Of a stretch of DNA of 64,000 nucleotides, positions 1-15,968 are shown in pieces; the stretch's first letter is position 1; each line of letters starts with the position of its first letter. The DNA comes from an uncultured Tropicimonas sp. (GTDB taxonomy: Bacteria; Pseudomonadota; Alphaproteobacteria; Rhodobacterales; Rhodobacteraceae): positions 1 through 64,000 of the forward strand of contig CANLZY010000008.1 in the NCBI GenBank assembly GCA_947495685.1, written 5' to 3'. The translations under genes and the position numbers were made by a program. The notes beneath the pieces are model-generated. The model had not been told where the DNA came from. It saw only the letters and a list, made by a program, of their open reading frames with translations, and searched no databases.

Positions 1-425
1 GATCCGTGTGAAGCGGAAGCTGAACTCGACCGAAGTGATCGATGCGCTGACGGACCTGTTCATTCTGCGCGGCGTTCCTTCCTTCATTCGCTCAGACAAC
101 GGCCCTGAATTCATTGCGGAAGCTGTCAGAGGTTGGATCAAGGCCGTCGGAGCCAAGACCGCCTACATCGAACCAGGTTCCCCATGGGAGAACGGATACT
201 GCGAGAGTTTCAATGGGCGAATGCGGGACGAACTGTTGAACGGCGAGATCTTCTACTCGCTGAGAGAAGCACAGATCATCATTGAAAGCTGGAGAAATCA
301 CTACAACACTAAACGACCCCACAGTGCATTGGGCTACCGTCCACCGGCGCCGGAAACCATCGTCCCGATGGACCAACGACCAACCATGCACTAACTTTCA
401 GATTGGACCACTCAAGTGGGGCCGC
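1..425 (+). mobile_element. Right part of an IS3-family insertion sequence
   Basis: The left end lies outside the window. It carries the C-terminal part of a DDE transposase that stops at 394, followed by about 30 bases of non-coding end sequence. These contain a perfect self-complementary core (ccactcaagtgg, 408-419) and then run directly into trbL coding sequence. The exact right boundary, about 420-428, is inferred from where TrbL-like sequence resumes. No target-site duplication can be checked because the other end is missing. Confidence 0.8.
2..394 (+). CDS. IS3-family transposase OrfB, C-terminal fragment
   Basis: This is the catalytic C-terminal part of an IS3-type transposase (retroviral integrase fold), which cuts and joins element ends. 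The second catalytic Asp is visible in RSDNGPEF and the Glu region in [18 protein letters not shown], followed by the family's typical [19 protein letters not shown] tail. The reading frame is open to the first base of the window, so the gene starts upstream. OrfA and the first Asp are not in view. Family assignment is confident; the IS name cannot be given. Confidence 0.9.
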
Positions 426-1263
426 TCAAACCCTGGCGGGCTTCGTGCTGATCCCCTTCGGCCTCTTTGGCAAGACCGCCTTCATGGCCGAACGGGTGCT
501 GGGCAACGTCGTCTCCTCCGGCATCAAGGTGCTGGTGCTGGCCGTGATCATTGGCATCGGTTCGACGCTCTTCGGCCAGTTCACCGCTGGCTTCGGGGGC
601 GTGACGCCCACCATCGACGAGGCCATGGCGATCGTGCTGGCCGCCCTTTCGCTTCTGGGTTTGGGTATTTTCGGCCCCGGTATCGCCACCGGTCTTGTCT
701 CCGGCGGCCCGCAATTGGGCGCAGGCGCCGCCGTGGGAACCGGTCTCGCCGTGGGCGGTGCAGCGGTGGCGACCGGCGGTGGCGCTATGCTCGCCGCGCG
801 CGGAGCAGGCGCTTTGGCCTCCGGTGGCACCGTGGCCACGCGCGGCGCGGCCTCTGCGGCGGGATCCGCCTCAACCGCCTACAGCCTCGGGTCGATGGGC
901 CAGACCGGTGCGGCAGGAGTCGCCTCCGGTTTGGGTGGTGTCGCGCGCTCTGCAGGCTCTGCCGCAGTCTCTCCACTGCGCAAGGCCGCAGCGTCAGCCA
1001 CGGAAAGCCTGCGCACAAGCCATGCCGAAGGCGCGCGTGCCGGGTTCGCCGCCACCGGCGGCACCTCAACCTCAGGCTCGATTGCCAGTGCTGCCAATCC
1101 AGCTTCCGCCGGACCTGCCGGCGGCCCGCCCGCTTGGGCCCAATCCATGCGCCGCAATCAGGCGATGAGTCACGGCGTCTCTGCCGCCACCCATGCGCTG
1201 CGCGCGGGCGACAGCCCGGGCGGCGGTGCCTCTGTCCCCCTGTCGGAAAGTGATCGCACATGA
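424..1263 (+). pseudogene. trbL: TrbL conjugal transfer membrane protein, truncated by IS
   Basis: TrbL (VirB6-like) is the polytopic inner-membrane component of the P-type conjugation system. Only the C-terminal 280 or so residues remain. They hold two hydrophobic stretches (VVSSGIKVLVLAVIIGIGS and AIVLAALSLLGLGIFGPGI) followed by a long low-complexity Gly/Ala/Ser tail typical of TrbL. The 5' part has been displaced by the IS ending just upstream; the apparent ATG at 403 belongs to IS end sequence. The stop overlaps the trbF start (ATGA). With the N-terminal membrane segments missing, conjugation through this system is probably broken unless an intact copy exists. Confidence 0.8.
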
Positions 1264-1949
1264 GTTTTTTCAAGCGCTCCACCACCCATTACGGCAAAAC
1301 GCCTGAACCTGAGACCCCCTATCAAAAGGCCGCGCAAGTCTGGGACGAGCGCATGGGGACGGCCCGGGTGCAGGCGAAGAACTGGCGCCTCATGGCCTTC
1401 GGTTGTCTGATCCTCTCAGCCGGCTTCGCTTCTGCGCTGGTCTGGCAATCGGCGCGCGGCACCGTGGTTCCTTACGTCGTCGAAATCGACGGGCATGGCG
1501 AAGCGCGGGCAGTTGAAGCCGCGACGGCAGGATACAGCCCGACCGATCCGCAGATCGCATGGCATCTCGCCCGTTTCGTGGAGGAAGTCCGGGGCTTGCC
1601 CGCTGATCCGGTCGTCGTGCGCCAGAACTGGCTGCGCGCCTATGAGTTCACCACTGATCGCGGGGCAACGGCGCTCAACGACCACGCCCGCGCCAACGAT
1701 CCGTTCACGAGGGTGGGCGAACAGCAGGTTTCGGTCGACGTCTCAAGCGTGATCCGCGCCTCGCCGGACAGTTTCCGTATCGCCTGGACGGAGCGGCACT
1801 ATGACAACGGCCAGCTTGCCCGGACCGAACGCTGGACCGCGATCCTGACCCTCGTGATCGACCCGCCGCGCACGGCAGAACGTCTGCGCGCAAATCCCCT
1901 CGGAATCTATGTCAATGCGATCAACTGGTCGCGGGAGATGAGCCAATGA
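1260..1949 (+). CDS. trbF: Conjugal transfer protein TrbF (VirB8-like)
   Basis: TrbF is the VirB8-type bitopic inner-membrane scaffold of the mating-pair-formation complex. The 229-residue protein has a short cytoplasmic N-terminus, one membrane segment around residues 42-62 (LMAFGCLILSAGFASALVW) and a periplasmic NTF2-like domain with the family's VVPYVVEID start and a NPLGIYV motif near the end. It overlaps the trbL remnant by four bases and trbG by four bases, so the genes are translationally coupled. It appears intact. Confidence 0.9.
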   Translation: MSFFKRSTTHYGKTPEPETPYQKAAQVWDERMGTARVQAKNWRLMAFGCLILSAGFASALVWQSARGTVVPYVVEIDGHGEARAVEAATAGYSPTDPQIAWHLARFVEEVRGLPADPVVVRQNWLRAYEFTTDRGATALNDHARANDPFTRVGEQQVSVDVSSVIRASPDSFRIAWTERHYDNGQLARTERWTAILTLVIDPPRTAERLRANPLGIYVNAINWSREMSQ

Positions 1950-2932
1950 CCTACACCCGTCCTGTCCTGCCCATCGTCTTGCTAGCCGCTACATTCCTGA
2001 TCGGATGTGCCAGCGACCGTCCGCCCGAATTCGCCTATGACGACGATGTCCCGCCCTTGCCGACGCCGCCAGTGACCGCGCCGGACGACCGTCCGCGCCC
2101 GCTCCATGTCCCGCCTGCTTGGACTCCGAGCCGGGGCGGGGAAGAAGCGACGACCCCTGTTGCGCAGGTCGGCAATGCCAATGACGCGGCCCGCGTCGAA
2201 CCGAGGCAGGCGGGGTATTTCAACGCGATCCAGATCTATCCCTGGTCCGAAGGCGCCCTCTATCAGGTCTACGCCGCTCCGGGCCAGATCACGACCATCG
2301 CGCTCGAGCCCGGTGAACGTCTCGCCGGCACCGGCCCGATCGCGGCGGGCGATACCGCGCGCTGGATCATCGGCGACACTGAAAGTGGCGCGGGTCGGGA
2401 CACCCGCGTCCTCGTCCTCGTGAAACCCACACGGCCCGACATCAGCACAAACCTCGTAATCTCCACCGACCGGCGCACCTATCTGATCGAACTCAATGCT
2501 TCCGAAGAGACCTGGATGCCCGCCATCTCCTGGGCCTATCCGAGGGCACCCGAGACACCGCGCATCGCCGCCGCCACGCCGCGCATCCCGGCACCCCATG
2601 CACGCAATCACCGCTACGGGTTGCAGGTGCAGGGCGACAGCCCGCCCTGGCGCCCGGTCTCGGTTTTTGACGACGGTCGCCGGGTCTATGTCGTCTTCCC
2701 GCGCGGCATCGCCCAGGGAGAGATGCCACCGCTCTTCGTCCTCGGGGCCGATGGTGAGTTGGAGATCGTCAACTCCCGCATCCACGGCAACGTGCTGATC
2801 GTCGACCGGCTCTTCGGCGCGGCCGAATTGCGCCTCGGGCGCGGTCCCCGGCAGGAGGTGGTGCGCATCCTGCGGATCGAACCGCAGACCGACGCAGCCG
2901 CCGCCGAAGGAACTGCGGAGCGGCCGACATGA
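1946..2932 (+). CDS. trbG: Conjugal transfer protein TrbG (VirB9-like lipoprotein)
   Basis: TrbG/VirB9 is part of the outer-membrane core complex of the conjugation machine. The 328-residue product has an N-terminal signal sequence ending in a lipobox (FLIGC, Cys about residue 22), a proline-rich linker and two beta-rich halves typical of the family. The second half contains RNHRYGLQV and DGRRVYVVFPR. Coupled to trbF and trbI by four-base overlaps. It looks complete. Confidence 0.9.
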   Translation: MTYTRPVLPIVLLAATFLIGCASDRPPEFAYDDDVPPLPTPPVTAPDDRPRPLHVPPAWTPSRGGEEATTPVAQVGNANDAARVEPRQAGYFNAIQIYPWSEGALYQVYAAPGQITTIALEPGERLAGTGPIAAGDTARWIIGDTESGAGRDTRVLVLVKPTRPDISTNLVISTDRRTYLIELNASEETWMPAISWAYPRAPETPRIAAATPRIPAPHARNHRYGLQVQGDSPPWRPVSVFDDGRRVYVVFPRGIAQGEMPPLFVLGADGELEIVNSRIHGNVLIVDRLFGAAELRLGRGPRQEVVRILRIEPQTDAAAAEGTAERPT

Positions 2933-4065
2933 CGGAGACTCCTCATGACACTGCGTCGGCTATGCGCCTGCGCGCTGATCCGCCTCGCGTCACCCGGATT
3001 TCGCGCAAGGTGATCATCGGCCTTGGCGTCGTCGCGGGCCTTGGCGTCGGCGCGGCCCTGATCTACGGCCTGCAGCGCCCGGATCGAAGTGCTGCAACGG
3101 AAGAGCTGATCACCACGGAGCGACGCCCGCCTGCCGATGGCTTGCGGGATCTGCCGGGCAGTTATGACGCCATTCCTCGGCTTGGTCCGCCCCTGCCGGG
3201 CGATCTGGGTGGCGGCATCCTCGACGCCCAGCGGCGGGGCCAGCCTGTTGCGACCCCGAGCCTCACACCGCCCACCACGGACCCGGCGGAACAACAGCGG
3301 CTTGCCGAGCTGGAAGCGGCCCGCGTCAGCGATCTCTTCTTCCAGACCCGGCCCGGGTCGCCAGCGTCCACGGGATTCCAGATGCCGCCTGCGGCGCCGG
3401 GGATCGAGATGGCTGCCACCCCGGAAACCGATCCACGTCAGGCCTTTCTCGACGCGCCCACTGACCGCCGCACGGTAGCGCCTGACCGCGTCCAGCGCCC
3501 GGCCTCGCCCTTTCTATTGCAGGCGGGATCTGTCATTCCAGCCGCCCTCATCACCGGGGTCCGCTCCGACCTGCCCGGGCAGATCACCGCCCAGGTCACA
3601 CAGAACGTCTATGATACCCCGACCGGCAGCCTGCTCTTGATTCCCCAAGGCACACGCCTCATCGGCGAATACGATGACGGTGTAACCGTCGGGCAGCGCC
3701 GCGTGCTCCTGATCTGGACACGGCTGATCTTCCCAGACGGACGGTCGCTGGTGCTCGAACGACAGCCCGGTGCCGATGCCGCGGGCTATGCCGGTCTCGA
3801 AGACCGCGTCGACAATCACTGGGCCAGCATCCTGCGCGCCGCGGGGCTTTCCACCCTGCTGGCCGTCGGGTCGGAACTCTCCCTCGACGAGGAAGACCGC
3901 CTCGCACGTGCCCTCCGCGACGGGGCCCTCGACACGATCAACGAGGCGGGCCAGCGCATAGTCCAACGCCAGTTGGAGGTCCCGCCGACCCTCACCATCC
4001 GCCCAGGCTTCCCCGTCCGCGTGATCGTCACGCGCGACCTTGTCTTCGTGCCACCCGGAGGCTGA
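2929..4065 (+). CDS. trbI: Conjugal transfer protein TrbI (VirB10-like)
   Basis: TrbI/VirB10 spans from the inner membrane to the outer-membrane core. Visible parts are a cytoplasmic N-terminus, one membrane segment at about residues 28-48 (IIGLGVVAGLGVGAALIYGL), a proline-rich periplasmic linker and the conserved C-terminal beta-barrel region beginning LQAGSVIPAALITGV and containing LLLIPQGTRLIGEYD. Length (378 residues) is normal. It is the last large trb gene before the DUF2274 gene; the two are separated by one base. Confidence 0.92.
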   Translation: MTETPHDTASAMRLRADPPRVTRISRKVIIGLGVVAGLGVGAALIYGLQRPDRSAATEELITTERRPPADGLRDLPGSYDAIPRLGPPLPGDLGGGILDAQRRGQPVATPSLTPPTTDPAEQQRLAELEAARVSDLFFQTRPGSPASTGFQMPPAAPGIEMAATPETDPRQAFLDAPTDRRTVAPDRVQRPASPFLLQAGSVIPAALITGVRSDLPGQITAQVTQNVYDTPTGSLLLIPQGTRLIGEYDDGVTVGQRRVLLIWTRLIFPDGRSLVLERQPGADAAGYAGLEDRVDNHWASILRAAGLSTLLAVGSELSLDEEDRLARALRDGALDTINEAGQRIVQRQLEVPPTLTIRPGFPVRVIVTRDLVFVPPGG

Positions 4066-4066
4066 C

Positions 4067-4315
4067 ATGACCAAGCTGAAACTCGGACCTATCCCGGACG
4101 ACAAGCCGGTAAAGCTGACCGTGGAGCTACCGGCAGAGCTGCATCGCGACCTGATCGCCTATGGTGAAATCCTCGGCCGGGAAGCGGGGGAGGAGCCGAT
4201 CGAACCCAGGAAGCTGTTGGTCCCCATGCTTGAACGGTTCATCGCGACGGATCGTGGGTTCGCCAAGGCGCGGCGAACGCTCCCAAGACGCGGTATGGCG
4301 AAGCAAGGACCATGA
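4067..4315 (+). CDS. DUF2274 family small protein downstream of trbI
   Basis: An 82-residue protein of the DUF2274 type that commonly closes trb operons; its function is unknown. It begins MTKLKLGPIPDDKPVKL and contains a ribbon-helix-helix-like LTVELPAELHRDLIAYGEIL stretch, so DNA binding is conceivable but unproven. I chose the ATG at 4067, one base after the trbI stop, rather than the upstream in-frame ATG inside trbI, because this matches the family N-terminus. It is the last gene before the AT-rich island block. Confidence 0.8.
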   Translation: MTKLKLGPIPDDKPVKLTVELPAELHRDLIAYGEILGREAGEEPIEPRKLLVPMLERFIATDRGFAKARRTLPRRGMAKQGP

Positions 4316-4767: not shown

Positions 4768-6147
4768 ATGAAAGAAGATAAGACTCTATCCCATTTTCGA
4801 CTAGAGTCAGATGGCTACGCAGCAGGAAATCGAACTAACAAAGGTGTTCCTGAAGGCGAAAGAAGGGCCGTCGTGGAGCGCCCGAGTATCTACTTTGATG
4901 TAGACCAAAAAAACCTGGCGATGGACCGGATTGCGAATAAGCTATTTGTAAATGACGCCGACAGAAACGAGTTTCACGGAGCCCAGAAATGGATTTCTGA
5001 ATGTGCGGGTCAAGTTAAGCTCCCCATCAATTTCTGCGGTGGTGTGCTTATTGTCCGTCTTTGTCGGCGGTTAGTTCCAGTCGAGCAACAGACTGAGGAA
5101 TGGTCCTCTGCAGTTCACCGCCTTGCTGCGGCTTACGACTTTGCCTTCTTGGCGCTAGGTCACGCAGATGATGAAGCGGATCTGACACGTGAAAGGGACG
5201 GTATTTCTGCGCGCTGGACGACGCATCCACAGACTCGTGCGGTAGACGGGATCAATCTCCTACTCGCAGGAATAACTGACATTCAAGATGCACTTAATGA
5301 ATGGCCCATATTGCCACGTAACCACCAACCTAACTCTAAGCGAGTGCTTGAAGAACTATTGCGAGCTTTGCGGGAGGCATCTTTTCCAATTTTGCTTGAT
5401 AGATCTGGACTTGGCTATGATCACGCCGAGTCGGATGGTGATAGGTATCTGGGTCTACAGATAGACGATGCTAGCTTAAACAATGTTGCGCTATACGCGA
5501 GGCATCGAGCGCATACCTATTTTCTACGGGCGCTTTGGATAGCAGTTTTCGCAACTGGGTATAATAAGATCGACACAGAGCTTGAGCGACTTCTGGAACG
5601 ACTTCTTGAACTTTTAGCTTCCATTGGCGCCGCATCCGACGATATGCAAGACACTTTTGTCGATTTTTCCGCGCGAACGCACTCTGTAGTGTCCGTAATG
5701 GCGCATCTATGCGTGGCAGATGAGCTATCGCTGCGACCTCTGTTTCGACGGAAAGTAGAGGAAGCAGAGATCCAACATCAAAGGCAACTCTTGTCCGATG
5801 TATGGGGTGCGGCCTCGGACCAAGCGGGCAGGGAGAAAATCACTCAGCTATTTGAAAGTATCGAGCTGAAAAAAGCGCTGTACCAACACTACGAACCTCA
5901 GTGCATAGAATTTGCCAACTGTATGTTCACAGCGGTCAAGTCGTATGGTTTCAGTGTCGAGTTGATGTCCGAGATTGTCGCTTACGTGTGCCAAGATAAA
6001 GAATTTTCCATTCCTTCTCAGTATATTTCTATGCTTGAGTCGCTGGATGATGAAGTTCTCATAGGCTTAGTGAATCTGGAAATCGGAAAGTATATTACCG
6101 GATATTTTCTTGATAAGTTTCTTCCCTCAAAAGAAAAGACACACTGA
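4768..6147 (+). CDS. Prenyl-diphosphate-synthase-like protein (putative)
   Basis: I read this 459-residue protein as a divergent trans-isoprenyl diphosphate synthase, an all-helical enzyme condensing IPP with an allylic diphosphate. It has two Asp-rich motifs, DDEAD at 134-138 followed by an Arg, and DDMQD at 291-295, about 157 residues apart. The upstream GG pair at 91-92 is about 43 residues before the first motif, as in the family. However, the usual GGKxxRP motif is degenerate (GGVLIVR), so the substrate or reaction may be unusual. The C-terminal 130 residues are unassigned. ATG at 4768 follows GGAGG at good spacing. Base composition is AT-richer than the chromosome. It could instead be a class I terpene synthase or an inactive relative; assignment is from motifs only. 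Confidence 0.5.
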   Translation: MKEDKTLSHFRLESDGYAAGNRTNKGVPEGERRAVVERPSIYFDVDQKNLAMDRIANKLFVNDADRNEFHGAQKWISECAGQVKLPINFCGGVLIVRLCRRLVPVEQQTEEWSSAVHRLAAAYDFAFLALGHADDEADLTRERDGISARWTTHPQTRAVDGINLLLAGITDIQDALNEWPILPRNHQPNSKRVLEELLRALREASFPILLDRSGLGYDHAESDGDRYLGLQIDDASLNNVALYARHRAHTYFLRALWIAVFATGYNKIDTELERLLERLLELLASIGAASDDMQDTFVDFSARTHSVVSVMAHLCVADELSLRPLFRRKVEEAEIQHQRQLLSDVWGAASDQAGREKITQLFESIELKKALYQHYEPQCIEFANCMFTAVKSYGFSVELMSEIVAYVCQDKEFSIPSQYISMLESLDDEVLIGLVNLEIGKYITGYFLDKFLPSKEKTH

Positions 6148-6244
6148 CCTGCGCCTGAACCCTTAAGTTCTAGTGTTGTAGCGCGCTTGCTTGCACACGG
6201 CGCGATATTGCCAAGTTTCCTAAATTTTTTTGATACTTGAGGAA

Positions 6245-7639
6245 TTATCTTTCCCCAAAAATTGTGGCCAAGATCGGGTCAATTTGTTGAAGTCTGCCAA
6301 CTAAATAGCTATCCTTGAGGAAGAACCATGCTCCTACCAAGATTGAAATAACCACAAGTGTTGTGCGTACTCTATGCAGGCGATAAATAGTCAGTCCTGG
6401 ATGGTATCTTGTGCTAAACAAATGATCAAATGCGACCTCTGGGTCTGCTTTGGTTTCTTCAATTCGTCTGCGGCTTTTCCTAATGTTGTCCACCCAGAAA
6501 TACAAAGTGATTGTGAGTAGAGCACTTGGAAAGCTAAACCATTGCCAAGGCTGGTTTAAGAACCTTTCCCAATCGAGGACTAGAACCCAGCCAATAGGGT
6601 TAAAAATATCTGTTTGCTGATTCCATTGATTCCACACCGGCCAATCCACAAGTGCAAATAGCGCCACAATCAAGGCAGTAGATGAAAGGAATAAGCGCAA
6701 TTTTTCGAATGCTGGAGGATGTCGATCAATCAGGAGTTTCCGCAGTTCCGGATCAGCAAACTTTCCTGGTGTAGATATCAATACCAATGGGGCATAAAAC
6801 CAAGACGTGGATTTTAGGCTGTAGCGCCAAACGAGAGAAGGGACAAAGACTACGAATACTAAGAACAGCCCACCAATTTTTTCCGGGAGGGTTCCATTCA
6901 CAACCCGTTTAAAGTTGTGCGCAAAATGGAAACCCTCGTTCCTTTGCGTGACGCCGGGAAGCAGCTCGGGGGCGTGTGCGACATCCTCAACAAGCATTAT
7001 TCGTTGCCAGTTACTTGATATGTTGCGCGCTCCAGCAAGTGGATGACGGGCTACCGAGATTGCGCGTACCAGTATCGAGCGCCCTAAGAACCCTACGAAG
7101 AGGCCCAGCCCAGAAAGTATTGCAAACAAACTAAGAAAGATGGGGGTTCTGACACGCTTCGCAATTCGAGAGGAATATGCAACTATGGCATCTGGGGAAA
7201 GTGTAACAGCCATAGCGATAAGAGTGTTGAGTGAGATCCAAGCTACGACTCCTTTCCGCACTATCGAAGTGCTCTTGCCAACTTCATGAGGCCAGTACTT
7301 TGCTAGGAGTTGAGTAAAAAGCCAGGTAGCAGTGACAGCTACTAATAAGATTATTAGGTTTTGCGCTGACCAAGGGGATAGCTCTTTATTTCTAAATGAG
7401 AAACGGTCCCACAACTCCTGTGCGTACTCTACAGATTTTTCTGATCTCATCAGTACAAGAGGTGCGGCTACGATGGTGATCATTAGGTGAAGATGGGTCT
7501 GCCAAGTAATCGCAATCCACCAATATAGCCCAACTGAAAAAATAAGTTCGATTGCAGCAAGCATTGAAGGTTGTCGATGCCTAATAGAATTTTTTGAGGA
7601 ATATAAAACCCATTTGTTGTTTTGCCGTACTTTGTCCAT
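6245..7639 (-). CDS. Unknown polytopic membrane protein
   Basis: Not recognised. The 464-residue product has roughly nine or ten hydrophobic segments: about residues 27-45, 49-62, 92-110, 127-146, 165-186, 255-275, 282-292, 312-332, 355-385 and 430-448. A soluble loop of about 65 residues in the middle holds conserved-looking polar residues (SNWQRIMLVEDVAHAPELLP). I see no transporter signature, heme ligand set or UbiA Asp motif. It lies downstream of the cyclase and SRPBCC genes on the same strand, 209 bases after the latter, and faces the prenyl-synthase-like gene. Its role may be in the same pathway (export or membrane anchoring), but that is inference. AT-rich like its neighbours. Confidence 0.7.
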   Translation of the reverse strand: MDKVRQNNKWVLYSSKNSIRHRQPSMLAAIELIFSVGLYWWIAITWQTHLHLMITIVAAPLVLMRSEKSVEYAQELWDRFSFRNKELSPWSAQNLIILLVAVTATWLFTQLLAKYWPHEVGKSTSIVRKGVVAWISLNTLIAMAVTLSPDAIVAYSSRIAKRVRTPIFLSLFAILSGLGLFVGFLGRSILVRAISVARHPLAGARNISSNWQRIMLVEDVAHAPELLPGVTQRNEGFHFAHNFKRVVNGTLPEKIGGLFLVFVVFVPSLVWRYSLKSTSWFYAPLVLISTPGKFADPELRKLLIDRHPPAFEKLRLFLSSTALIVALFALVDWPVWNQWNQQTDIFNPIGWVLVLDWERFLNQPWQWFSFPSALLTITLYFWVDNIRKSRRRIEETKADPEVAFDHLFSTRYHPGLTIYRLHRVRTTLVVISILVGAWFFLKDSYLVGRLQQIDPILATIFGER

Positions 7640-7848
7640 TTATTGATCCCCATACCGATCTAAAGCAGCGCATGAGCTTGACGCGATATTACTGGGCAAG
7701 GCTTTGGTGCCCATCAAGTTTATGAAGTTAGTTACTCTGCTTGCTCGTTGGTGGAACTGGTCTATCGCTTTCATTTACTCTTTCGGAAGGCTTGATGAAC
7801 TCTATCTCATCGCGATGGATGTCTACAGCGCAAAGTCGATTTCTACTA

Positions 7849-8316
7849 TCACTCGTCCGGATCCCTGTTTCTTGCATGTGCCCTAATTCTCGCAATCCCA
7901 TCTTCCATGTCTCTTGACATCGTATTAGTTACAATCGGCGTCCCTAGCGAAAGAAACGGCGACAGTCGGATGTCTATCTTCCAGCTAACCTCAGTCGCAA
8001 CTGTTTCAAACCCATCGGAAAAGATGAACTCGCTTTGGTATGATATGCCATTCGAGTGGCCTGATGATTTGAAATAGGACGATGCCTCAACAGCTACGAA
8101 ATCAAAAGTAGCATTTTTCGCGAAGCCAAATGCTTTGACTCTGCAAAGGACCTGGCTTCCAACAAATATTCTCCCTTTCGGTCTGTGGGAAACATAGCTG
8201 AGGCCCGGAAGCCATTTTGAGGTGTTCCTTGGATCAATCAAAAAGGAAAATGTGCTTTCACGCGTCGATTCGACCGAGAAATCCTTGCGCAGTGATATAT
8301 CCCAATCTTCAGTCAT
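7849..8316 (-). CDS. SRPBCC (START-like) fold protein
   Basis: A 155-residue protein resembling the SRPBCC/polyketide-cyclase superfamily, whose members bind hydrophobic ligands in a deep cavity. It begins with a beta strand (ISLRKDFSVES) followed by a helix region (STFSFLIDPRNTSKWLPG) in the order usual for the fold, and ends with a long amphipathic helix. I chose the ATG at 8316 over a TTG one codon earlier. It starts 25 bases after the cyclase gene on the same strand and is probably cotranscribed. A role in binding or shuttling a terpenoid intermediate is plausible but not shown. Family assignment is by pattern only. Confidence 0.6.
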   Translation of the reverse strand: MTEDWDISLRKDFSVESTRESTFSFLIDPRNTSKWLPGLSYVSHRPKGRIFVGSQVLCRVKAFGFAKNATFDFVAVEASSYFKSSGHSNGISYQSEFIFSDGFETVATEVSWKIDIRLSPFLSLGTPIVTNTMSRDMEDGIARIRAHARNRDPDE

Positions 8317-8341
8317 CAAGAGGCGTCCAGCCTGTCCAGTA

Positions 8342-10237
8342 TCAGCAATTCATCTTCTCCCGCTCTTTTTTGTAGACGTGGAGACTCTTTGCCGCAAAGT
8401 ATGTCGGAGTGTTGGAGAAATTTGAATACCAGAGCCCTGGCACGCCGGCGGCAAAGAAATCATTGTTCGTCCACGTCCCTTCTGGATCTTGGTTCTCAAG
8501 TAGCCAATTCGCTGCGCTGTGCGCGATTGCCGTATCCGCAGAGCCGCAGAAACAAAGGCACAAAAGGCCACAAGCTGTGTGAAATGGGGTCGATGGCGCT
8601 GCCACATAGCCGTTCTCTGGCCCGGAGTCTGGAGCTTCGCCGAAGCCACCGTCTTGATTTACGATGGAACGAAGCCAGCCTATGGTTGTGTCAGAGTTTC
8701 TTGCGTGACCGAGTTCCCTGAACATTTCGAGAGCGTGGCTAGTCCCGTAAAGATAGTGCGTAAACCAACTGCCATACCACTTACCCTGAACTTCTTGGTT
8801 CTCAACCCATGCCGCTCCTGAAGCCAACGCTCTTTGGAACTTCTTGCATAGTTGTTCGTCAAGGTCATCGCAGTCCAAGAGAAGCCTTCTAAGCAGTAAT
8901 ATTGCCCGCGACGTAATGTCGACTGCTGGCAAGTCACGAGCAAACCAGGGACCTCCGTTGGGAATTTTCATCCAATTGCGATCATTTCGATCCCAACTGG
9001 CCCAGCCACCGTTGGAGCATTGCATCGAGACGAGCCATTTTGCTCCTTCAAGGCTCGCGTTTCGGCACACCTCATCCCTATGTGACAGCAGCGCTAGCGA
9101 GGCAAACGCTGTAGTGTCGCAATCTGGATACCACTTTCCAACTCTCTGGAAACACCAAGCGCCGCCAGCAGCTACATCGACGCGCTTGAACCAATCTCCG
9201 CGGTGGAAATTCTGGTTCTCAATGAGATAGTTCCGGGGCCTTTCGACGTTCTGTTTACTCCTGCTTCCATCAATTCTTTGCAGCAAGTCCAGAAATAGGA
9301 TTGTGTCCCAGGTCGTGCTATCCGTGAATTGCTGCGAGAGTCCGTTTCTCTCATTTCGATGCCAAGCCCGTAGGGCTTGAAGACCGGCTTGTATTTGAGG
9401 TTCAAAAAGCTTTGAGTCTAGTTTGTGGAGCGCCACAACCGCTATGGAAGTCATATGAACTGAAGAGAAGAAGGAGCCATCATCTTCTTGATGCTGAAGT
9501 AGAAAGTTTACCGCCCTCTCAAATTGCTTTTGGCTTGGGAAGACAGCTTCGACAGCTCTCACTATTTTGCTGATAATTTCTAGCGGACTCGAACGACGTT
9601 TAGTGTGATCGGTAATCCAATCTTTTATCCAGGATTTGAACGCTTTGGTATTGGGTGTCTCTGGAAGATGTGTCTTTGCCACTTTGTCTGGCACATGCTT
9701 GAGCTCAATTGCTTGAATTATGCTTGTCGCTACTACGGCAAGCCTCAAAAAACTAAAATCAAATATGTTTGGACGAACCCAATTTGGATGCCCAACGATC
9801 CTGACGGACAGGTGTGGTGTCTCGGACCACGCGAGGTGTCCATTCAGTGCTAGGTAGCCAAGCCAAAAGGAGTCGAGTTCAGGAGGCTTCTGATTTACTA
9901 GCCATTGCCTGGCACCCTCTCGGGCAGCAACTCCGTCATCCGACGTACAGGACTCAAGAGATAGAGCGCATACGAGTGTGACATCGACGTTTGGCCCGCT
10001 GCCTGGCCACTTTTCCCACCCACCGCAGTCTAATTGTTCCTGTTTGAGGAAGGCTTCCAACTTCGGAATGCTTTTGTCCGATGAACGTCCGGTGTTTCGA
10101 ACGGTGTTGAGAAAGAAAGCCGTCGCTCTTGCATCGCTCCTGACAGCGCCGTCCCATGTCCCGTCCTCAAGCTGACTTGATATCAAGAATTCAGACGTCT
10201 TCGCCAACGCTTCTTTCACTTCTTGGAGTGTGGACAT
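8342..10237 (-). CDS. Squalene-hopene-cyclase-like class II terpene cyclase
   Basis: The 631-residue protein matches the squalene-hopene cyclase fold in length and landmarks. These are repeated QW-type motifs (QLEDGTW near 22-28, QCSNGGWASW, QDGGFG, QDPEGTW), a GHPNWVRPNIFDFS segment, and the catalytic region GGAWCFQRVGKWYPDCDTTA. The general-acid motif is D372-C-D374-T375 rather than canonical DxDD. The middle Asp, the proton donor in the family, is kept and the third Asp is Thr. Such enzymes protonate a polyene and form fused rings. Its natural substrate is unknown; no squalene synthase is in view, but a prenyl-synthase-like gene lies 2.2 kb away. AT-rich composition and island location indicate transfer. 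Confidence 0.85.
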   Translation of the reverse strand: MSTLQEVKEALAKTSEFLISSQLEDGTWDGAVRSDARATAFFLNTVRNTGRSSDKSIPKLEAFLKQEQLDCGGWEKWPGSGPNVDVTLVCALSLESCTSDDGVAAREGARQWLVNQKPPELDSFWLGYLALNGHLAWSETPHLSVRIVGHPNWVRPNIFDFSFLRLAVVATSIIQAIELKHVPDKVAKTHLPETPNTKAFKSWIKDWITDHTKRRSSPLEIISKIVRAVEAVFPSQKQFERAVNFLLQHQEDDGSFFSSVHMTSIAVVALHKLDSKLFEPQIQAGLQALRAWHRNERNGLSQQFTDSTTWDTILFLDLLQRIDGSRSKQNVERPRNYLIENQNFHRGDWFKRVDVAAGGAWCFQRVGKWYPDCDTTAFASLALLSHRDEVCRNASLEGAKWLVSMQCSNGGWASWDRNDRNWMKIPNGGPWFARDLPAVDITSRAILLLRRLLLDCDDLDEQLCKKFQRALASGAAWVENQEVQGKWYGSWFTHYLYGTSHALEMFRELGHARNSDTTIGWLRSIVNQDGGFGEAPDSGPENGYVAAPSTPFHTACGLLCLCFCGSADTAIAHSAANWLLENQDPEGTWTNNDFFAAGVPGLWYSNFSNTPTYFAAKSLHVYKKEREKMNC

Positions 10238-10862
10238 GATTATTTAAAAACTCGATGGGACCGCTCTTTCAAGTTTGCAGTAGATCCAGCAAAACATCCA
10301 GACGGAGCAACACACTCAGCTATTTCGGTTGCCTTCGTCTGCTGGGACATCCATGAAAAACTCATAGTTGCAAAAATAGGGCTTTGTGTTGCTCATCGTT
10401 TTTCCTGGTTGGAAGATCTGGTTCAAGTCGAGACTTGGCTCCAACGATAGACCGCCCATGGAGAATGGGATCGAAACTGACGTCAGATCAACGGGTTAGG
10501 TGGTCGGTCTGTGCAATCTGTGTGCATTGGACGCATGCCAAGCCTCGTGTCCAAGCGAAGCCGACGTGACGACTGAGAACGATGTGATTGGCAGAGGCGT
10601 TCACCTTTCTCACGCTGCAAGCTGCGGAACTCCGCTCTCGACCAACAGCAAAAATCGTAAGTTGCGAGCCCGCGCAACCAACTGTGTTTGCGAACCAGCC
10701 GATGGCCCGATCTATGATGTGGGCGCTCGATCTGCTGGAGTTTCGTGAGGAGTAGATCGCACCAGGCGAATGCTGCGAGTGGCGATCGTGGACGATCGAG
10801 CTCTAGGTATCTTGAGGTTGAATTATATGTATAACAGTGCATTGCGCATCTATCTTAATGCT
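10238..10862. other. Gene-free region between cyclase and integrase
   Basis: About 620 bases in which I find no convincing gene: the open frames on either strand are short, lack ribosome-binding sites and have no recognisable protein. It should contain the cyclase promoter (left, reading minus) and the 3' end of integrase transcription. No strong terminator hairpin or clear promoter was identified. Confidence 0.5.
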
Positions 10863-12041
10863 CTAATTCCCATGCTTTCGAGCTGACTTGGTCCGGATTT
10901 GGACGGCAGCAGGACGTCGTGACGGCTTTCTCGTGCGTTGGTTTGGGTCGGGTGTGGTGACTTCCGGTGTCCAGCCCCAGCCTTCGTACTTGTCACCCGC
11001 CTGACGCAGGTGCGTGTATCGCTTGAGTGATACCCAAGATCGGTGCCCAGAAACCGCAGCGGCATGCGGGACGTTGTAGCCGATCTCGAACAGGCGTGAG
11101 ACGCCTTCATGGCGAAGATCGTGGAAACGTAGATCCGCAATGCCGAGAAATTGGTTGGCGCGTGTGAAGGACGCGCTGATCGCGTCGGTCGAGTAGGGGA
11201 AGATCTGGTCTGTATGTCGGGGCATCGCCTCGATGATCGCAAGGGCTGGATCAGGAAGATCGCACCACACGTCGTTGCCGATCTTTTCGCCCGGGTTCTT
11301 CATATCCCGGACCAGCACACGTCTGCCGTCCTCGTCGAGGTCGGCCCATTTGATGCGTGTGATTTCCTCTTGTCGGCGGGTCGAGAAGATCGCGAAAGCC
11401 ATGACGCGATGCATGGGGACGGAGGAGGGGCGTCGGATCGACCGGTCGAGGAAATGCGTCATTAGGCGATCAAGCTCGTCCAACGTCGGCCGCCGGTCCC
11501 GATGTCGGCTCTTCTGGGTCAGGCCGAGCTTCTTCGCGACAATCAGGGCGTCGCGCATTGCTTTCTCGTCCAGGGGATAGTTCCAGGCGGGTCCAGCAAC
11601 GGTGAAGACCGCGCTCATGTGCGACATGTAGTTTGACACCGTCTGAGGCGTCACACCCGATTTCAGCTTTTCCTGTGCGAAGGCGACGATGTCCGCGCTG
11701 TCGATCTCAGCGCACGGCTTACCCGCGATGTCGAAATTCTTGATGCTTTTGAGTACTTGGGACTTAGTCCGACCGATTGCCTTTGCGCTATCATCGACAT
11801 ATTTATCTATGGCATCGGCGAGGGTTGCATCACGGCGTTTGTGGTCGCCAGCGCGGAAGCCCCCCAACGCACCGGGTTTCGCCAAGTCCTTCTCGCGTTT
11901 CTCGAGCCAGGCGGCGGCGATCGAACGGCGCTCGAAGGTACGGTTCTCGCGGAAAACCGTCTTTCCTGCTCGCCGGATCGCGATTTGGGCGAGCCAGGAA
12001 GTGGAGCCGTCTTTCCGCTTTCGCTTGATGATGGTACCCAT
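10863..12041 (-). CDS. int: Tyrosine recombinase/integrase of the dusA-associated island
   Basis: A 392-residue phage-type integrase that should catalyse excision and integration at dusA. Visible parts are an N-terminal arm-binding domain (MGTIIKRKRKDGSTSW), a SAM-like core-binding domain (about residues 90-170) and the catalytic domain. The catalytic domain has Arg in FSTRRQEEI, HDLRHEG, SGHRSW and the nucleophile Tyr in SLKRYTHL. I chose the ATG at 12041 over one 17 codons upstream, because it gives the usual N-terminus and leaves the TTACAACAT repeats outside the gene. It sits just upstream of dusA in opposite orientation, the arrangement described for dusA-targeting integrases. Confidence 0.92.
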   Translation of the reverse strand: MGTIIKRKRKDGSTSWLAQIAIRRAGKTVFRENRTFERRSIAAAWLEKREKDLAKPGALGGFRAGDHKRRDATLADAIDKYVDDSAKAIGRTKSQVLKSIKNFDIAGKPCAEIDSADIVAFAQEKLKSGVTPQTVSNYMSHMSAVFTVAGPAWNYPLDEKAMRDALIVAKKLGLTQKSRHRDRRPTLDELDRLMTHFLDRSIRRPSSVPMHRVMAFAIFSTRRQEEITRIKWADLDEDGRRVLVRDMKNPGEKIGNDVWCDLPDPALAIIEAMPRHTDQIFPYSTDAISASFTRANQFLGIADLRFHDLRHEGVSRLFEIGYNVPHAAAVSGHRSWVSLKRYTHLRQAGDKYEGWGWTPEVTTPDPNQRTRKPSRRPAAVQIRTKSARKHGN

Positions 12042-12045
12042 GGGG

Positions 12046-12114
12046 TTACAACATGAGGCCTGAGTTACAACATTTGTTGTAAACCATGCCAAAAATGGGC
12101 GAGAATTACAACAT
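12046..12114. repeat. TTACAACAT repeats and palindrome upstream of integrase
   Basis: The nonamer ttacaacat occurs at 12046-12054, 12065-12073 and 12106-12114. The middle copy is half of an 18-base perfect inverted repeat (ttacaacatttgttgtaa, 12065-12082). The cluster lies between the integrase and dusA starts and is AT-rich. It is likely a regulator operator or recombinase arm-binding site; which of the two cannot be told from sequence. Confidence 0.6.
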
Positions 12115-12149
12115 ATGAGACAAGAACGGGACGGATGACTGAGCGGTAA

Positions 12150-13175
12150 ATGGCTGATAAAGATAAAAAATATAATGTTCTCAATGCGTCCCGTTTATCC
12201 GTCGCGCCGATGATCGACTGGACGGATCGTCACTGCCGGGTGTTTCATCGCACGATGTCTGCACAGACCCTGCTCTACACCGAGATGATCACCGCACCGG
12301 CGCTGGTGCGCGGAGGAGCGCGGCATCTTCTGGCATTCTCCGAGGTCGAGCATCCGATTGCCGTTCAGTTGGGCGGTTCGGACCCTGTCGAACTCGCCCG
12401 CGCGACCGCGATGGCTGAGGAGGACGGGTACGACGAGGTCAACCTGAATGTCGGTTGTCCATCGGACCGCGTGCAGTCCGGGTTCTTTGGAGCGGTGTTG
12501 ATGGAGCACCCTGCTCTGGTCGGAGAGTGCGTCTCTGAGATGGTTGCCGCGTGTGCCCTTCCGGTGACAGTGAAGTGCCGGATCGGTGTAGATGATCAGG
12601 CCCCCGAAGAGGTGCTGCCGGCGTTCTTGCAGACCCTGTGCGATGCCGGTGCACGCCGCGTGACCATCCACGCGCGCAAGGCTTGGTTGCAGGGGCTGTC
12701 TCCCAAGGAGAACCGGGACATCCCGCCGCTGGATTACCCGCTTGTGCATGCGATGAAGGCCGCCTTTCCGGGGATACACATCTCGATCAATGGCGGGTTC
12801 GACACGCTGGACGCAGCCGAGGCACATCTCGCCGCCGGGATGGACGGGGTGATGATCGGACGCGCGGCCTACCACACGCCGGCTGACATCCTGTTGCCGG
12901 CGGACCGTCGGATCTTTGGCGCGGATACGATGGATAAGTCCCGCTGGCAGGTGCTCGACGAGATGCGGTCGTATATCTCGGGCCAACTGGCCCAGGGGCA
13001 GCGGTTGAACTCGATCACCCGGCACATGATGGGTCTGTTCGCGGGGCAACCCGGCGCGCGGCTCTGGCGGCGTATTCTCAGCGAGGGGGCACATCGGGCG
13101 GGTGCCGGGCTGGAGGTGGTCGACGCCGCTGCCGAGGCCGTGCAGGCGGCGCAGGCTTCAATGCTCGACCCCTAG
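12150..13175 (+). CDS. dusA: tRNA-dihydrouridine synthase A
   Basis: DusA reduces uridine to dihydrouridine in the D-loop of tRNA using FMN. The 341-residue TIM-barrel protein shows APMIDWTDRHCR, the catalytic Cys in NVGCPSDRVQSG and the SINGGFDT and GVMIGRAAYH phosphate-binding parts. The first 15 or so codons (MADKDKKYNVLN) are strikingly AT-rich, whereas everything after about position 12200 has host composition. The start and promoter were therefore probably supplied by the integrated island, keeping the gene intact. Confidence 0.95.
   Translation: MADKDKKYNVLNASRLSVAPMIDWTDRHCRVFHRTMSAQTLLYTEMITAPALVRGGARHLLAFSEVEHPIAVQLGGSDPVELARATAMAEEDGYDEVNLNVGCPSDRVQSGFFGAVLMEHPALVGECVSEMVAACALPVTVKCRIGVDDQAPEEVLPAFLQTLCDAGARRVTIHARKAWLQGLSPKENRDIPPLDYPLVHAMKAAFPGIHISINGGFDTLDAAEAHLAAGMDGVMIGRAAYHTPADILLPADRRIFGADTMDKSRWQVLDEMRSYISGQLAQGQRLNSITRHMMGLFAGQPGARLWRRILSEGAHRAGAGLEVVDAAAEAVQAAQASMLDP
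12200..12230 (+). other. Probable island attachment site inside the 5' end of dusA
   Basis: Published dusA-associated islands recombine within the 5' end of dusA. Here the AT-rich island-like sequence switches to GC-rich host codon use around 12195-12210, just before the codons for MIDWTD. The exact core cannot be fixed without the other end or an uninterrupted relative. Confidence 0.45.
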
Positions 13176-13516
13176 CCGTCCCTGCGCGCGAGCACGCCTG
13201 CGTCAGCAGGCGCCATGCCCAACGGGATGAGGGGCTGGCAGGCCCCAAAGACGGGCGGGAGCGCTCCCGTTTTCGGAGGTGATCGCTCTGGAGTGGCAGC
13301 CGTCACAGCGTCATCCGTGGCCGGCTGCCAGACCTGGCCCTCGCGACAGGTCCAGGGCCTTGCACGACCGCGCGGATCTCTTGGCCGGGTATTGACCGTT
13401 GGTCGTTTGCCCGGGCGTCGTGGCCCATCGTTGCGCAGCGCCATCCAGGCATCAGTATCCGCCAGGAATTTCTGTCACTGAATCGACACGTCGGTCGCTG
13501 CCACGCCGGTCCTCTT
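13176..13516. other. Gene-free region after dusA
   Basis: No supported gene on either strand; the open frames here have no family resemblance. It contains a terminator-like hairpin just after dusA (listed separately) and a small hairpin formed by ggggc and gcccc near 13231-13246. The convergent DUF1289 gene ends at 13517. Confidence 0.55.
13256..13273 (+). terminator. Candidate terminator after dusA
   Basis: cgggagcgctcccg (13256-13269) is fully self-complementary and followed by TTTT, about 80 bases after the dusA stop. It fits a short Rho-independent terminator. Confidence 0.5.
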
Positions 13517-13750
13517 TCAACCGCCCACGCGTGCCGCCCGTCCGCCGCGACGCCGTTGCAATCTCGGGGCGCGGGTGGGCAACTCGGCCATGATCTCCCG
13601 CCGTTGCTTCGGCGACATACGTCCCCAGGCGGCAATTTCGTCCATGCTGCGCAGGCAGCCCGTGCAGATCCGTTCCGCGGGATGGATCACGCAGATCTTC
13701 GTGCAAGGCGATTCCACCTCGTCCCGCGTCCAGATATCGTCGTCTTTCAC
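13517..13750 (-). CDS. DUF1289 family protein
   Basis: A 77-residue protein with the DUF1289 cysteine pattern: SPCTKICV, then [12 protein letters not shown], then the W-x-x-M-S-x-x-Q-R motif ([13 protein letters not shown]). The four Cys suggest a small metal-binding domain; its function is not established. I chose the GTG at 13750, preceded by GAGG, because the N-terminal extension in the longer frame has no family resemblance. It overlaps the ruvX 3' end by four bases, so the two are cotranscribed. Confidence 0.8.
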
Positions 13751-14223
13751 GGTGCGCGCCTCAAATGTCCAAGCCTGTCCAAGGCTCCCTGCAGGATAAA
13801 CCCGGCCGCGACATGATCTATGACCTCTGCGCGACGTTTTCGAGACGTATCCGCCTCCAACAAGGCTCTTTCGGCGGCAACGGTCGACAGGCGCTCGTCC
13901 CAATAGGTGATCGGCAGGTCGGTCAGCCGTTCGAGGTTGCGGGCAAAGGCGCGAGTCGACTGGCAGCGCGGGCCTTCGGAGCCGTCCATGTTGCGCGGCA
14001 ACCCCAGGACGATCCCGGCGGCTTCGCGCTCCGTCAGGATCTCCAGCAGCCGCGCGGCATCGACGCCGAACTTCTTGCGACGGATCGTTTCGGTTGGTGT
14101 CGCGGTCGACAACAGCCTGTCGGATATCGCGACGCCGATCGTCACGGTGCCCAGATCCAGCCCGGCAATGGCGCGGGTGGGCGGCAGCAGGGCCGCAAAT
14201 TCCGCGATCTCCTCACAGATCAT
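13747..14223 (-). CDS. ruvX: RuvX/YqgF RNase H-fold nuclease
   Basis: YqgF/RuvX is an RNase H-like nuclease implicated in 16S rRNA maturation and Holliday-junction processing. The 158-residue protein has the catalytic Asp in [12 protein letters not shown], the [13 protein letters not shown] loop, YWDERLST and the final Asp in [12 protein letters not shown]. It lies four bases after ccmI on the same strand and overlaps the DUF1289 gene, so ccmI-ruvX-DUF1289 looks like one operon. Confidence 0.92.
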
Positions 14224-14227
14224 CGGG

Positions 14228-15739
14228 TCATTCCGCCACGCCGGCGGCCACGGCCCCCTCGCGAACGATTTCCAGGGCGGCTTGGTCCTTGAACCGTTCC
14301 TGTGCTTCGGCCCAGATCGCGGCCGCCTGATCGCTGTTGCCCAGCACGCCGTGCGCGCTGATCAACCGGGCCCAGTCCTGCGGCGGACCACCTTCGGTGG
14401 CCAGCCGTTCGCCCAGCTGGTCGACCATCGCCCGGATCATCGCCTCGCGATCCTGGGGTTCCATCTCTGCGGCGTTCTGGATGTCTTCTTCGGTCGGCCC
14501 GCGACCGTCCGAGCCGACGCTTTCGACGCCGGCCGACACGGCGGCCTCGCGGATCGGCGCAAGAGTTTGGGGGTCGGCGAAGGTCCGCTGCGCCTCGGCC
14601 CAGATCGCAGCCGCGCGGTCGGTGTTGCCCAACACCCCGTGCGCCCGGATCAGCTTGGCCCAATCCGACGGCGGACCGCCTTCTTCAGCCATACGCGCGC
14701 CCAACTGGTCCACCATGCCTTGGACCATTTGCTTGCGGTCCTCGGGGCTCATGTCGGCGGCGGCGGCCATGTCTTCCGCGCTCGGGCCTCTGGGGTCTGT
14801 CAGCGGGTCGGGCGGCAAGGTGTAGTGGATTCCGGCGAGCGCCGCGACGCTTTCCAGTCGGGCCCGGATCACCGGGATCCAGGGCGCATCCGGCGGGCCT
14901 TCGCGCACCAGCGGCTCCCAGAACTGGAAGGTCTGGTCCGGTCGCTGGGTCTGCAGGTGCATCAGGCCGGCATAGTACCGGGCGATCGGATTGCCCGGAT
15001 CGCGGCTGAGCGCGCCGTTGAGCGCCGCGTCGGCCTCGGCCGAGACGCTCCCGCCGGCGGCCTGGATCAGCATGGCCGCATAGGTCGTGTAGTCCTGGCT
15101 GGTCGCCTCGTCGCCCTTCAGCTCGATGACCTTACGCTGTGCGGCATGGGCGGCGGGGATATTGCCCAGACCCGCCTCGTTGCGCGCCAACAGCACCCAG
15201 CCCTGCAACTCGTCCGGCTTTTCCGTCACCGCCGCGCGGAGCTGTTCGATCAGTTCCAGGAATTCCGGACTTGCATCGGCGGCGGGGGACACTGGCATGC
15301 GCGCTTCGAACTCGGCCTGGGTCAGGCGTTCGGCGCGGATCTTCTCGGCCTCGGCCATGCGTTTTTTCAACGGTTGGTCCTCGTACCCCGGCGCGCCGAT
15401 CTGGTCATAGATCAGATAGGCCCCACCGATCAGAGCCGTCCCGACAATTGCCGCGGCGGCAAAACTCAGCTCGCGCGGCGCAGTGCTCGCTTCGACGCCG
15501 CCGTCTCGGTCGGCGTCCAGAATGCGGCGCTTGATCTCGGTGCGCAGCCGGTCGGCCTCGTCGGCGCCGACAACGCCGCGCGCCACGTCCTTTTCAACCG
15601 CCTGCAACTGGTCGCGATAGACCTGGATGTCGACCGGTTCCAGCGTCGTGTCCGCGGCCTTGCCGGGCCGCAGCAGGGTCCAGCCGATCAGCAAAGCTGT
15701 GAGCAGGGTCAGTGCCCCCGAGATGATCCAGAATGTCAT
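14228..15739 (-). CDS. ccmI: c-type cytochrome biogenesis protein CcmI
   Basis: CcmI (CycH) presents apocytochrome c to the heme ligation complex in the periplasm. The 503-residue product starts with a membrane segment ([20 protein letters not shown]), then the conserved [19 protein letters not shown] region, a second membrane segment near residues 95-112 ([18 protein letters not shown]) and a large periplasmic TPR-like part. Two similar copies of a block with AxGVLGN and AAAIWAEAQ occur near the C-terminus, an internal duplication. Other ccm genes are not in the window. Confidence 0.9.
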
Positions 15740-15968
15740 GCGCCCTCCAGGCCGGTGTCGTCGGTCCGAACCTCATCTACCCGGAACCGGCGGCAGGGCA
15801 AAGCCCCTCACGACATGCGGCGCACCGATTGCGGCATCACAAGGTCGTTTACTGCCTGCAAGATGCCGCAGGGGGGCACATGTTCTTCCTGAATCAATTC
15901 CAAAAGGGATACCGTGCCGCTGGGCATCCCGACGGGATTGCCATGCCCGATGATGAACGAGGATTGCC

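Follow-up and report, generated by a model that had tools for sequence, protein, structure and literature searches.

The beginning of a contig from an uncultured Tropicimonas sp. (Rhodobacteraceae) carries, within a dusA-integrated element, a gene for a class II cyclase, here named P4, which, judged from its sequence, is a real homologue of this superfamily but not an ordinary squalene-hopene cyclase. Together with a single relative from another genome of the family (G022), it forms what the alignments and the phylogeny indicate is a distinct class II cyclase subfamily, one member of which is mobile. The window that we analysed covers the initial 64 kb of contig C8, which is 190,036 bases long and belongs to genome G000, an assembly of 189 contigs and 5.64 Mb. 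A preliminary description had placed four genes next to the integrase of this element and had interpreted them as a minimal terpenoid pathway. All four frames are indeed there, between trb conjugation genes and the integrase: P1 (positions 4768-6147, plus strand), a 459-residue orphan with the motifs DDEAD and DDMQD; P2 (6245-7639, minus strand), a 464-residue polytopic membrane protein; P3 (7849-8319, minus strand), a 156-residue small ligand-binding protein of the SRPBCC type; and P4 (8342-10237, minus strand), a 631-residue cyclase with the motif DCDTT at residues 372-376, which is the first in reading order of the three minus-strand genes.

P4 exceeds the Pfam gathering scores of both domains of the class II triterpene-cyclase superfamily (PF13243/PF13249), with 196.8 bits for SQHop_cyclase_C (E 6e-58, gathering score 26.1) and 96.7 bits for SQHop_cyclase_N (E 1.8e-27, gathering score 26.2), which bears out its initial identification as a squalene-hopene-cyclase-like enzyme. 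It also aligns end to end with the cyclase of Alicyclobacillus acidocaldarius (phmmer, E 8.5e-50), 174 of the 595 aligned residues (29%) being identical. At the same time, its scores lie below the NCBIfam cut-offs for hopene cyclase (TIGR01507, 257 versus 431.1 bits) and for squalene/oxidosqualene cyclases (TIGR01787, 219 versus 323 bits), and the G022 relative also falls short of the first of them (225.9 bits). Cyclases of this kind occur in 76 of 289 genomes of the class (E<=0.001), 48 of 398 of the phylum (E<=1e-20), and 8 of 374 of the family (E<=1e-10), the own genome being included each time and the three samples overlapping; they are rare in the host family. The identity of P4 with the cyclases listed from the class and phylum sets does not exceed 33%, partial matches included, and in the family set the G022 cyclase stands out (468 bits, 40% identity; 39% over 629 residues and 438 bits by tblastn) from the other six (24-26%). 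Matches were found in 49 plasmid records, the 40 listed having at most 27% identity, and in no viral contig. P4 is quite probably an active class II cyclase.

P4 and the G022 protein (L088) form a clade with a support of 1.0, whose stem measures 1.63 substitutions per site, or 1.87 if the fused proteins described below are added. We compared these two proteins with 41 other cyclases, namely 39 locus frames (L003-L031, L039, which is a fragment, L040, and L080-L087) plus L089 and L090; the set does not contain four fused proteins of the family (L091-L094), which we compared separately. Residue numbers are those of the A. acidocaldarius enzyme, mapped from the phmmer alignment and least sure near position 434. 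P4 and L088 have in common 32 residues at positions where at least 37 of the 41 other cyclases agree on another one, including the changes E45 to F, P263 to H, F605 to W, Y609 to F, and Y612 to T. The position of Y420 is occupied by W in both and by F in all 41 others. The active-site aromatics F601, F605, Y609, and Y612 are F, F, Y, and Y in the 41 cyclases, in which P263 is invariant as well, and all five residues are altered in both members of the subfamily; in P4 the aromatics correspond to V599, W603, F607, and T610, the position of F601 being V or I in the two proteins. Compared with squalene-hopene cyclase (Shc/HpnF, PDB 1gsz), P4 thus preserves homology over the whole alpha-alpha barrel and retains W312, F365, Asp374, Asp376, W489, and Y495, as do all 41, whereas Asp377 is replaced by Thr, as are, by other residues, F601, F605, Y609, Y612, P263, and E45. 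Several of the signature positions are predicted to lie in the active-site wall, and the pocket appears to have been rebuilt. That these changes are common to two proteins only 39% identical argues for selection and a working, different pocket rather than for decay. Our literature search gave no mutant paper on the effect of changes at F601, F605, Y609, or Y612, and no paper on a squalene-hopene cyclase with a DXDTT motif or with an SRPBCC protein.

The protonation motif itself does not distinguish the subfamily. Instead of the DxDD form P4 reads DCDTT, keeping the first two aspartates; D377 is T in P4, D in L088, D in 39 of the 41 others, and T in two Acidobacteria cyclases. We had considered DCDTT as a mark of the subfamily and dropped it, since its other carriers are those Acidobacteria enzymes (L039 and L040), which branch apart from P4, and the motif of the G022 cyclase is DVDDT. 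L039 and L040 are like P4 in this motif and differ from it in their ordinary pocket residues and in not being its sister group. Both adjoin genes that resemble, by eye, those for an HpnH-like radical SAM protein, a type 2 IPP isomerase, and a squalene/phytoene synthase, and L040 (Acidobacteria bacterium Mor1) also has HMG-CoA reductase-like and mevalonate-kinase-like genes nearby. The fused proteins are another side observation: in four of the 374 family genomes, a squalene-epoxidase-like flavin domain is joined to a cyclase domain with an oxidosqualene-cyclase-like VSDCT motif in frames of 1137-1162 residues (L091 in G036 C28, L092 in G854 C85, L093 in G861 C104, and L094 in G878 C93), Pfam having been run on two of the four and L094 being cut by the locus end. 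In these fusions F601, Y609, Y612, and P263 are retained, position 605 is occupied by A, and position 45 by Q. The literature searched contains no report of epoxidase-cyclase fusions.

We tentatively propose that the island cargo consists of P4 cyclising a substrate other than squalene, P1 as a divergent partner with the prenyl-synthase fold, and P3 as a carrier of the product, a reading that may well be right but that as a whole falls somewhat short of being probable. We infer the catalysis and substrate of P4, the fold and role of P1, and the roles of P2 and P3 as follows. P4 would protonate a terminal alkene by the aspartate of DCDTT that is equivalent to Alicyclobacillus Asp376; it would keep part of the aromatic wall in an otherwise rebuilt pocket and hence cyclise a compound different from squalene, the most likely candidates being a linear prenyl diphosphate, a prenyl alcohol, or a prenylated aromatic. 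P1, with a very divergent isoprenyl-diphosphate-synthase fold, would make (or consume) that prenyl diphosphate from the IPP/FPP of the host, P3 would bind the hydrophobic product or transport it, and P2 may handle the product at the membrane or be unrelated. That squalene is not the substrate of P4 seems to us reasonably probable, and the subfamily as a whole may likewise use another compound. A more far-reaching version, namely a mobile squalene-independent pathway in which P1 is a new prenyl-diphosphate or prenyl-coupling synthase that its sequence does not reveal, P4 closes rings on the product of P1, P3 acts as carrier, and the resulting cyclic terpenoid lipid comes from no known route, we consider unlikely.

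The case for P1 comes from its motifs and its predicted structure. Its ATG is preceded by GGAGG, and DDEAD and DDMQD, noticed from the outset, lie at residues 134 and 291, two DDxxD motifs arising in 0.9% of 20,000 shuffles. AlphaFold2 models computed from the single sequence, one for the entire protein and one for residues 42-449, are helical throughout. Of the Foldseek rows listed for the first model (50 of 429), 49 are isoprenyl diphosphate synthases, the exception being a methane monooxygenase chain, and for the second model all 50 listed (of 477) are enzymes of this type, which include farnesyl and geranylgeranyl diphosphate synthases; the same human enzyme fills many of the rows. Both DDxxD motifs stand three residues after a predicted helix of the low-confidence model; in prenyl synthases, the two Asp motifs follow helices. 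P1 is like the isoprenyl diphosphate synthases (PF00348) in having two DDxxD motifs, in being helical in the models, and in having these enzymes as its top structural matches, and differs from them in motif spacing, mostly 127 residues in that family, in matching no profile, and in having no GGKRxRP-like motif, which is a motif of these synthases. On the evidence of the models, P1 would probably have the prenyl-synthase fold in a very divergent form; that it feeds P4 is possible, though rather doubtful.

Several results weigh against the proposed reading. At the sequence level the label of prenyl synthase given to P1 in the preliminary description fails: P1 does not match the polyprenyl synthase profile (PF00348), none of the Pfam families matches it at E<=1, and the same holds for PADLOC and PHROGs; NCBIfam gives one irrelevant row (HrpD6, 0.084), and the sequences of the PDB give no match. 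An in-house profile built on the frames of prenyl-synthase loci (31 in all) scores P1 at -2.1 bits, and hhalign performs no better with P1 than with shuffled sequences, 11 of 100 of which score as high. The structural support is also weak, since the two models have mean pLDDT values of 42 and 45 and the Foldseek matches have E values of 0.03-0.6 and TM-scores of about 0.2, obtained without a decoy-protein control. The two motifs are 157 residues apart, versus 127-130 in 19 of the 31 prenyl-synthase frames (of the others, two have a spacing of 164 and ten a single motif). P1 was found only in its own genome in sets of 146 and 248 genomes and, among the 398 of the phylum, in its own genome plus two weak matches (E 7.5e-5 and 9.8e-4) that we judged by eye to be due to chance, one being apparently antisense to a longer frame and the other lying inside an oxidoreductase-like frame. 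Exact 8-residue patterns revealed no close homologue in genome contigs, viral contigs, or plasmids. To this are added the position of P1 on the strand opposite to P4, the canonical DVDDT of the G022 cyclase, the presence of a CrtB-like enzyme in G022, and the lack of any credible match to P1, P2, or P3 (best E 0.35) within 38 kb around the G022 cyclase.

The two remaining genes agree with their first descriptions and are unequally connected with the cyclase. P3 matches Polyketide_cyc2 above its cut-off (Pfam, 1.5e-7), as expected of an SRPBCC-type protein, starts 22 nt downstream of P4, and is likely co-transcribed with it. P2 has eight hydrophobic segments, two of them overlapping, in a simple hydropathy scan, which fits a polytopic membrane protein of no known family; a search of 100 genomes gave one partial relative (34%), in G009, a genome without matches to P4 or P1, and the tie of P2 to the cyclase is weak. 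Neither P2 nor P3 has matches in plasmids or viral contigs. A defence role for the cargo was considered and rejected, PADLOC giving no family for P1-P3 and one spurious row for P4.

The strongest competitor holds that P4 is the only terpenoid enzyme of the island, that P1 and P2 are unrelated cargo, and that P4, together with P3, acts on an isoprenoid of the host, for instance farnesyl derivatives or a prenylated quinone precursor. This is a realistic explanation, if not one that we expect to prevail. It gains from the locus of the G022 cyclase (L095/L096, about 277482-282746 of contig C1), where the enzyme is followed by a UbiH-family flavin monooxygenase with a weak squalene-epoxidase match and then by a protein of RND/Patched-like type, which scores 27.5 bits with HpnN against a cut-off of 752, in surroundings of higher G+C and with no integrase read in the 38 kb. 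The G022 relative is thus like P4 in its 39% identity and the same 32 signature residues and differs in its motif and its own neighbours; P1 has no match anywhere in the G022 genome. As the set of four genes is not preserved in the single relative that we found, it is the cyclase that stays constant. The convergent orientation of P1, on the opposite strand, and the two ordinary prenyl synthases of the own genome point the same way. On the other side, the structural hint of P1 toward prenyl synthases would have to be a coincidence, and the similar low G+C across P1-P4 suggests a shared arrival. Of the minimal terpenoid pathway first imagined, the class II cyclase and the SRPBCC protein stand, whereas P1 fails the sequence test and the expected conserved co-occurrence fails in G022; the low-confidence models lend the prenyl-synthase label weak support, and the idea of a pathway is not refuted outright, since P1 might be a prenyl synthase that was recruited in this one case.

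It is distinctly less likely that P4 is an ordinary squalene-hopene cyclase that has evolved fast and that receives squalene from an unrecognised source, possibly P1. The common fold and the catalytic aspartate shared with the Alicyclobacillus enzyme would agree with this, as would the hopanoid-type genes next to the Acidobacteria DCDTT cyclases, but P4 scores under both NCBIfam cut-offs, and the residues F601, F605, Y609, Y612, and P263 are changed in both members of the subfamily. The supply of squalene is a further difficulty. No HpnC/HpnD-type squalene-synthase pair was recognised in the own genome or in G022, HpnE-type and other routes not having been searched. The own genome has one SQS_PSY match (72.7 bits), which covers positions 2-172 of the 263 in the model and whose frame contains only one DxxxD; we take it to belong to a catalytically different short family. 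G022 has two, one short like that of the own genome and one full-length and CrtB-like, which lies beside a CrtI-like gene and should therefore, by eye, be a phytoene synthase. Two genomes of the same family with ordinary cyclases (G012 and G981) have two full SQS_PSY matches each, 1.4 and 2.3-2.4 kb from the cyclase, and two with the fused epoxidase-cyclase (G036 and G854) have more than one full-length match each; with two genomes per side this comparison is a small sample, and as all 12 genomes compared contain at least one SQS_PSY match, presence alone says little. The hopanoid-like character first attributed to the gene set is therefore not supported, the pocket residues, the score, and the missing synthase pair all arguing against hopene.

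The P1-P4 block is best explained as the cargo of an element that is integrated at dusA and was once conjugative. The G+C content of the block is 44-52% (1-kb windows, 5001-11000), versus 64-69% at 1-4000 and 60-69% at 12001-17000, in accordance with the AT-rich block recognised next to the integrase in the preliminary description. The tyrosine integrase (10863-12092, minus strand; Phage_integrase 8.8e-14, phrog_1 integrase 2.5e-46) adjoins the 5' end of its integration target dusA (12150-13175, plus strand; Pfam Dus 1.4e-78). A stretch of 1,269 bases that spans the integrase and the initial 73 bases of dusA (12150-12222, plus strand, the attachment-site region) has a second copy, 91.6% identical, on the left side of contig C33, and beyond the dusA fragment that contig has other genes. 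An integrase at the dusA 5' end with a flanking repeat of the dusA 5' sequence, together with conjugation genes, is what PMC4482086 describes for dusA-specific genomic islands; the cargo reported there includes phage, metal resistance, metabolism, and conjugation, whereas here it is of terpenoid type. The arrangement looks like two dusA-type elements in tandem, with the second one beginning on C33 with its left end, and C33 may belong to the same element as the window. Besides this second junction, C33 (L048-L050) has a gene run with TIR-like matches and giant frames of 2505 and 3718 residues and, near the contig end, a CBASS-type cyclase and an E1-E2 protein cut short beside an apparent insertion-sequence start.

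On the other side of the cargo lies the tail of a conjugation module (403-4315, plus strand) with trbL, trbF, trbG, trbI, and a small downstream gene (frames 403-1263, 1260-1949, 1946-2932, 2929-4065, and 4040-4315), similar at the DNA level to annotated trb genes on alphaproteobacterial plasmids, including those of Paracoccus and Phaeobacter. It is preceded at the contig edge, window base 1 being contig base 1, by the end of an IS3-family transposase gene (1-421, plus strand, frame 8-394), and an annotated IS3 family transposase underlies the matching stretch of a Phaeobacter inhibens plasmid. Because the IS3 end directly precedes the shortened trbL frame (window 1-1263), the module is probably broken at the left end of the window, trbL having presumably been truncated by the insertion sequence. 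That the cargo is likewise decaying and functionless, its genes drifting in a broken element, is very improbable: this damage and the long branch of P4 (2.76 versus a median of 0.37, in the tree before the G022 relative was added) speak for it, but P1-P4 are four intact frames with a coding-like codon-position G+C, and the pocket changes are conserved between P4 and G022.

PMC12583986 reports shc from 3 of 203 genera of Rhodobacterales, sees no clear sign that hpn genes were transferred horizontally, and sets aside a divergent second Shc clade; relative to that account, a mobile cyclase with an altered pocket in this family would be new. For a squalene-hopene cyclase on an integrative conjugative element, the literature searched gave only a work on CRISPR interference in Zymomonas. 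Triterpenes made without squalene are described in PMC9177416 for TvTS and MpMS, which share with our proposal the idea of triterpenes derived from prenyl diphosphates supplied by a prenyl-synthase partner and differ in being fused fungal enzymes of class I, whereas P4 is of class II and separate from P1. Some terpene synthases are invisible to sequence profiles, according to PMC11234867. If the proposed reading is true, P1 would add a prenyl-type enzyme that such profiles do not detect, and the squalene-hopene-cyclase superfamily would include a branch that has moved off squalene, with one of its members on a mobile island. It would also call for caution in the use of biomarkers, as the presence of a cyclase gene need not mean that hopanoids are made.

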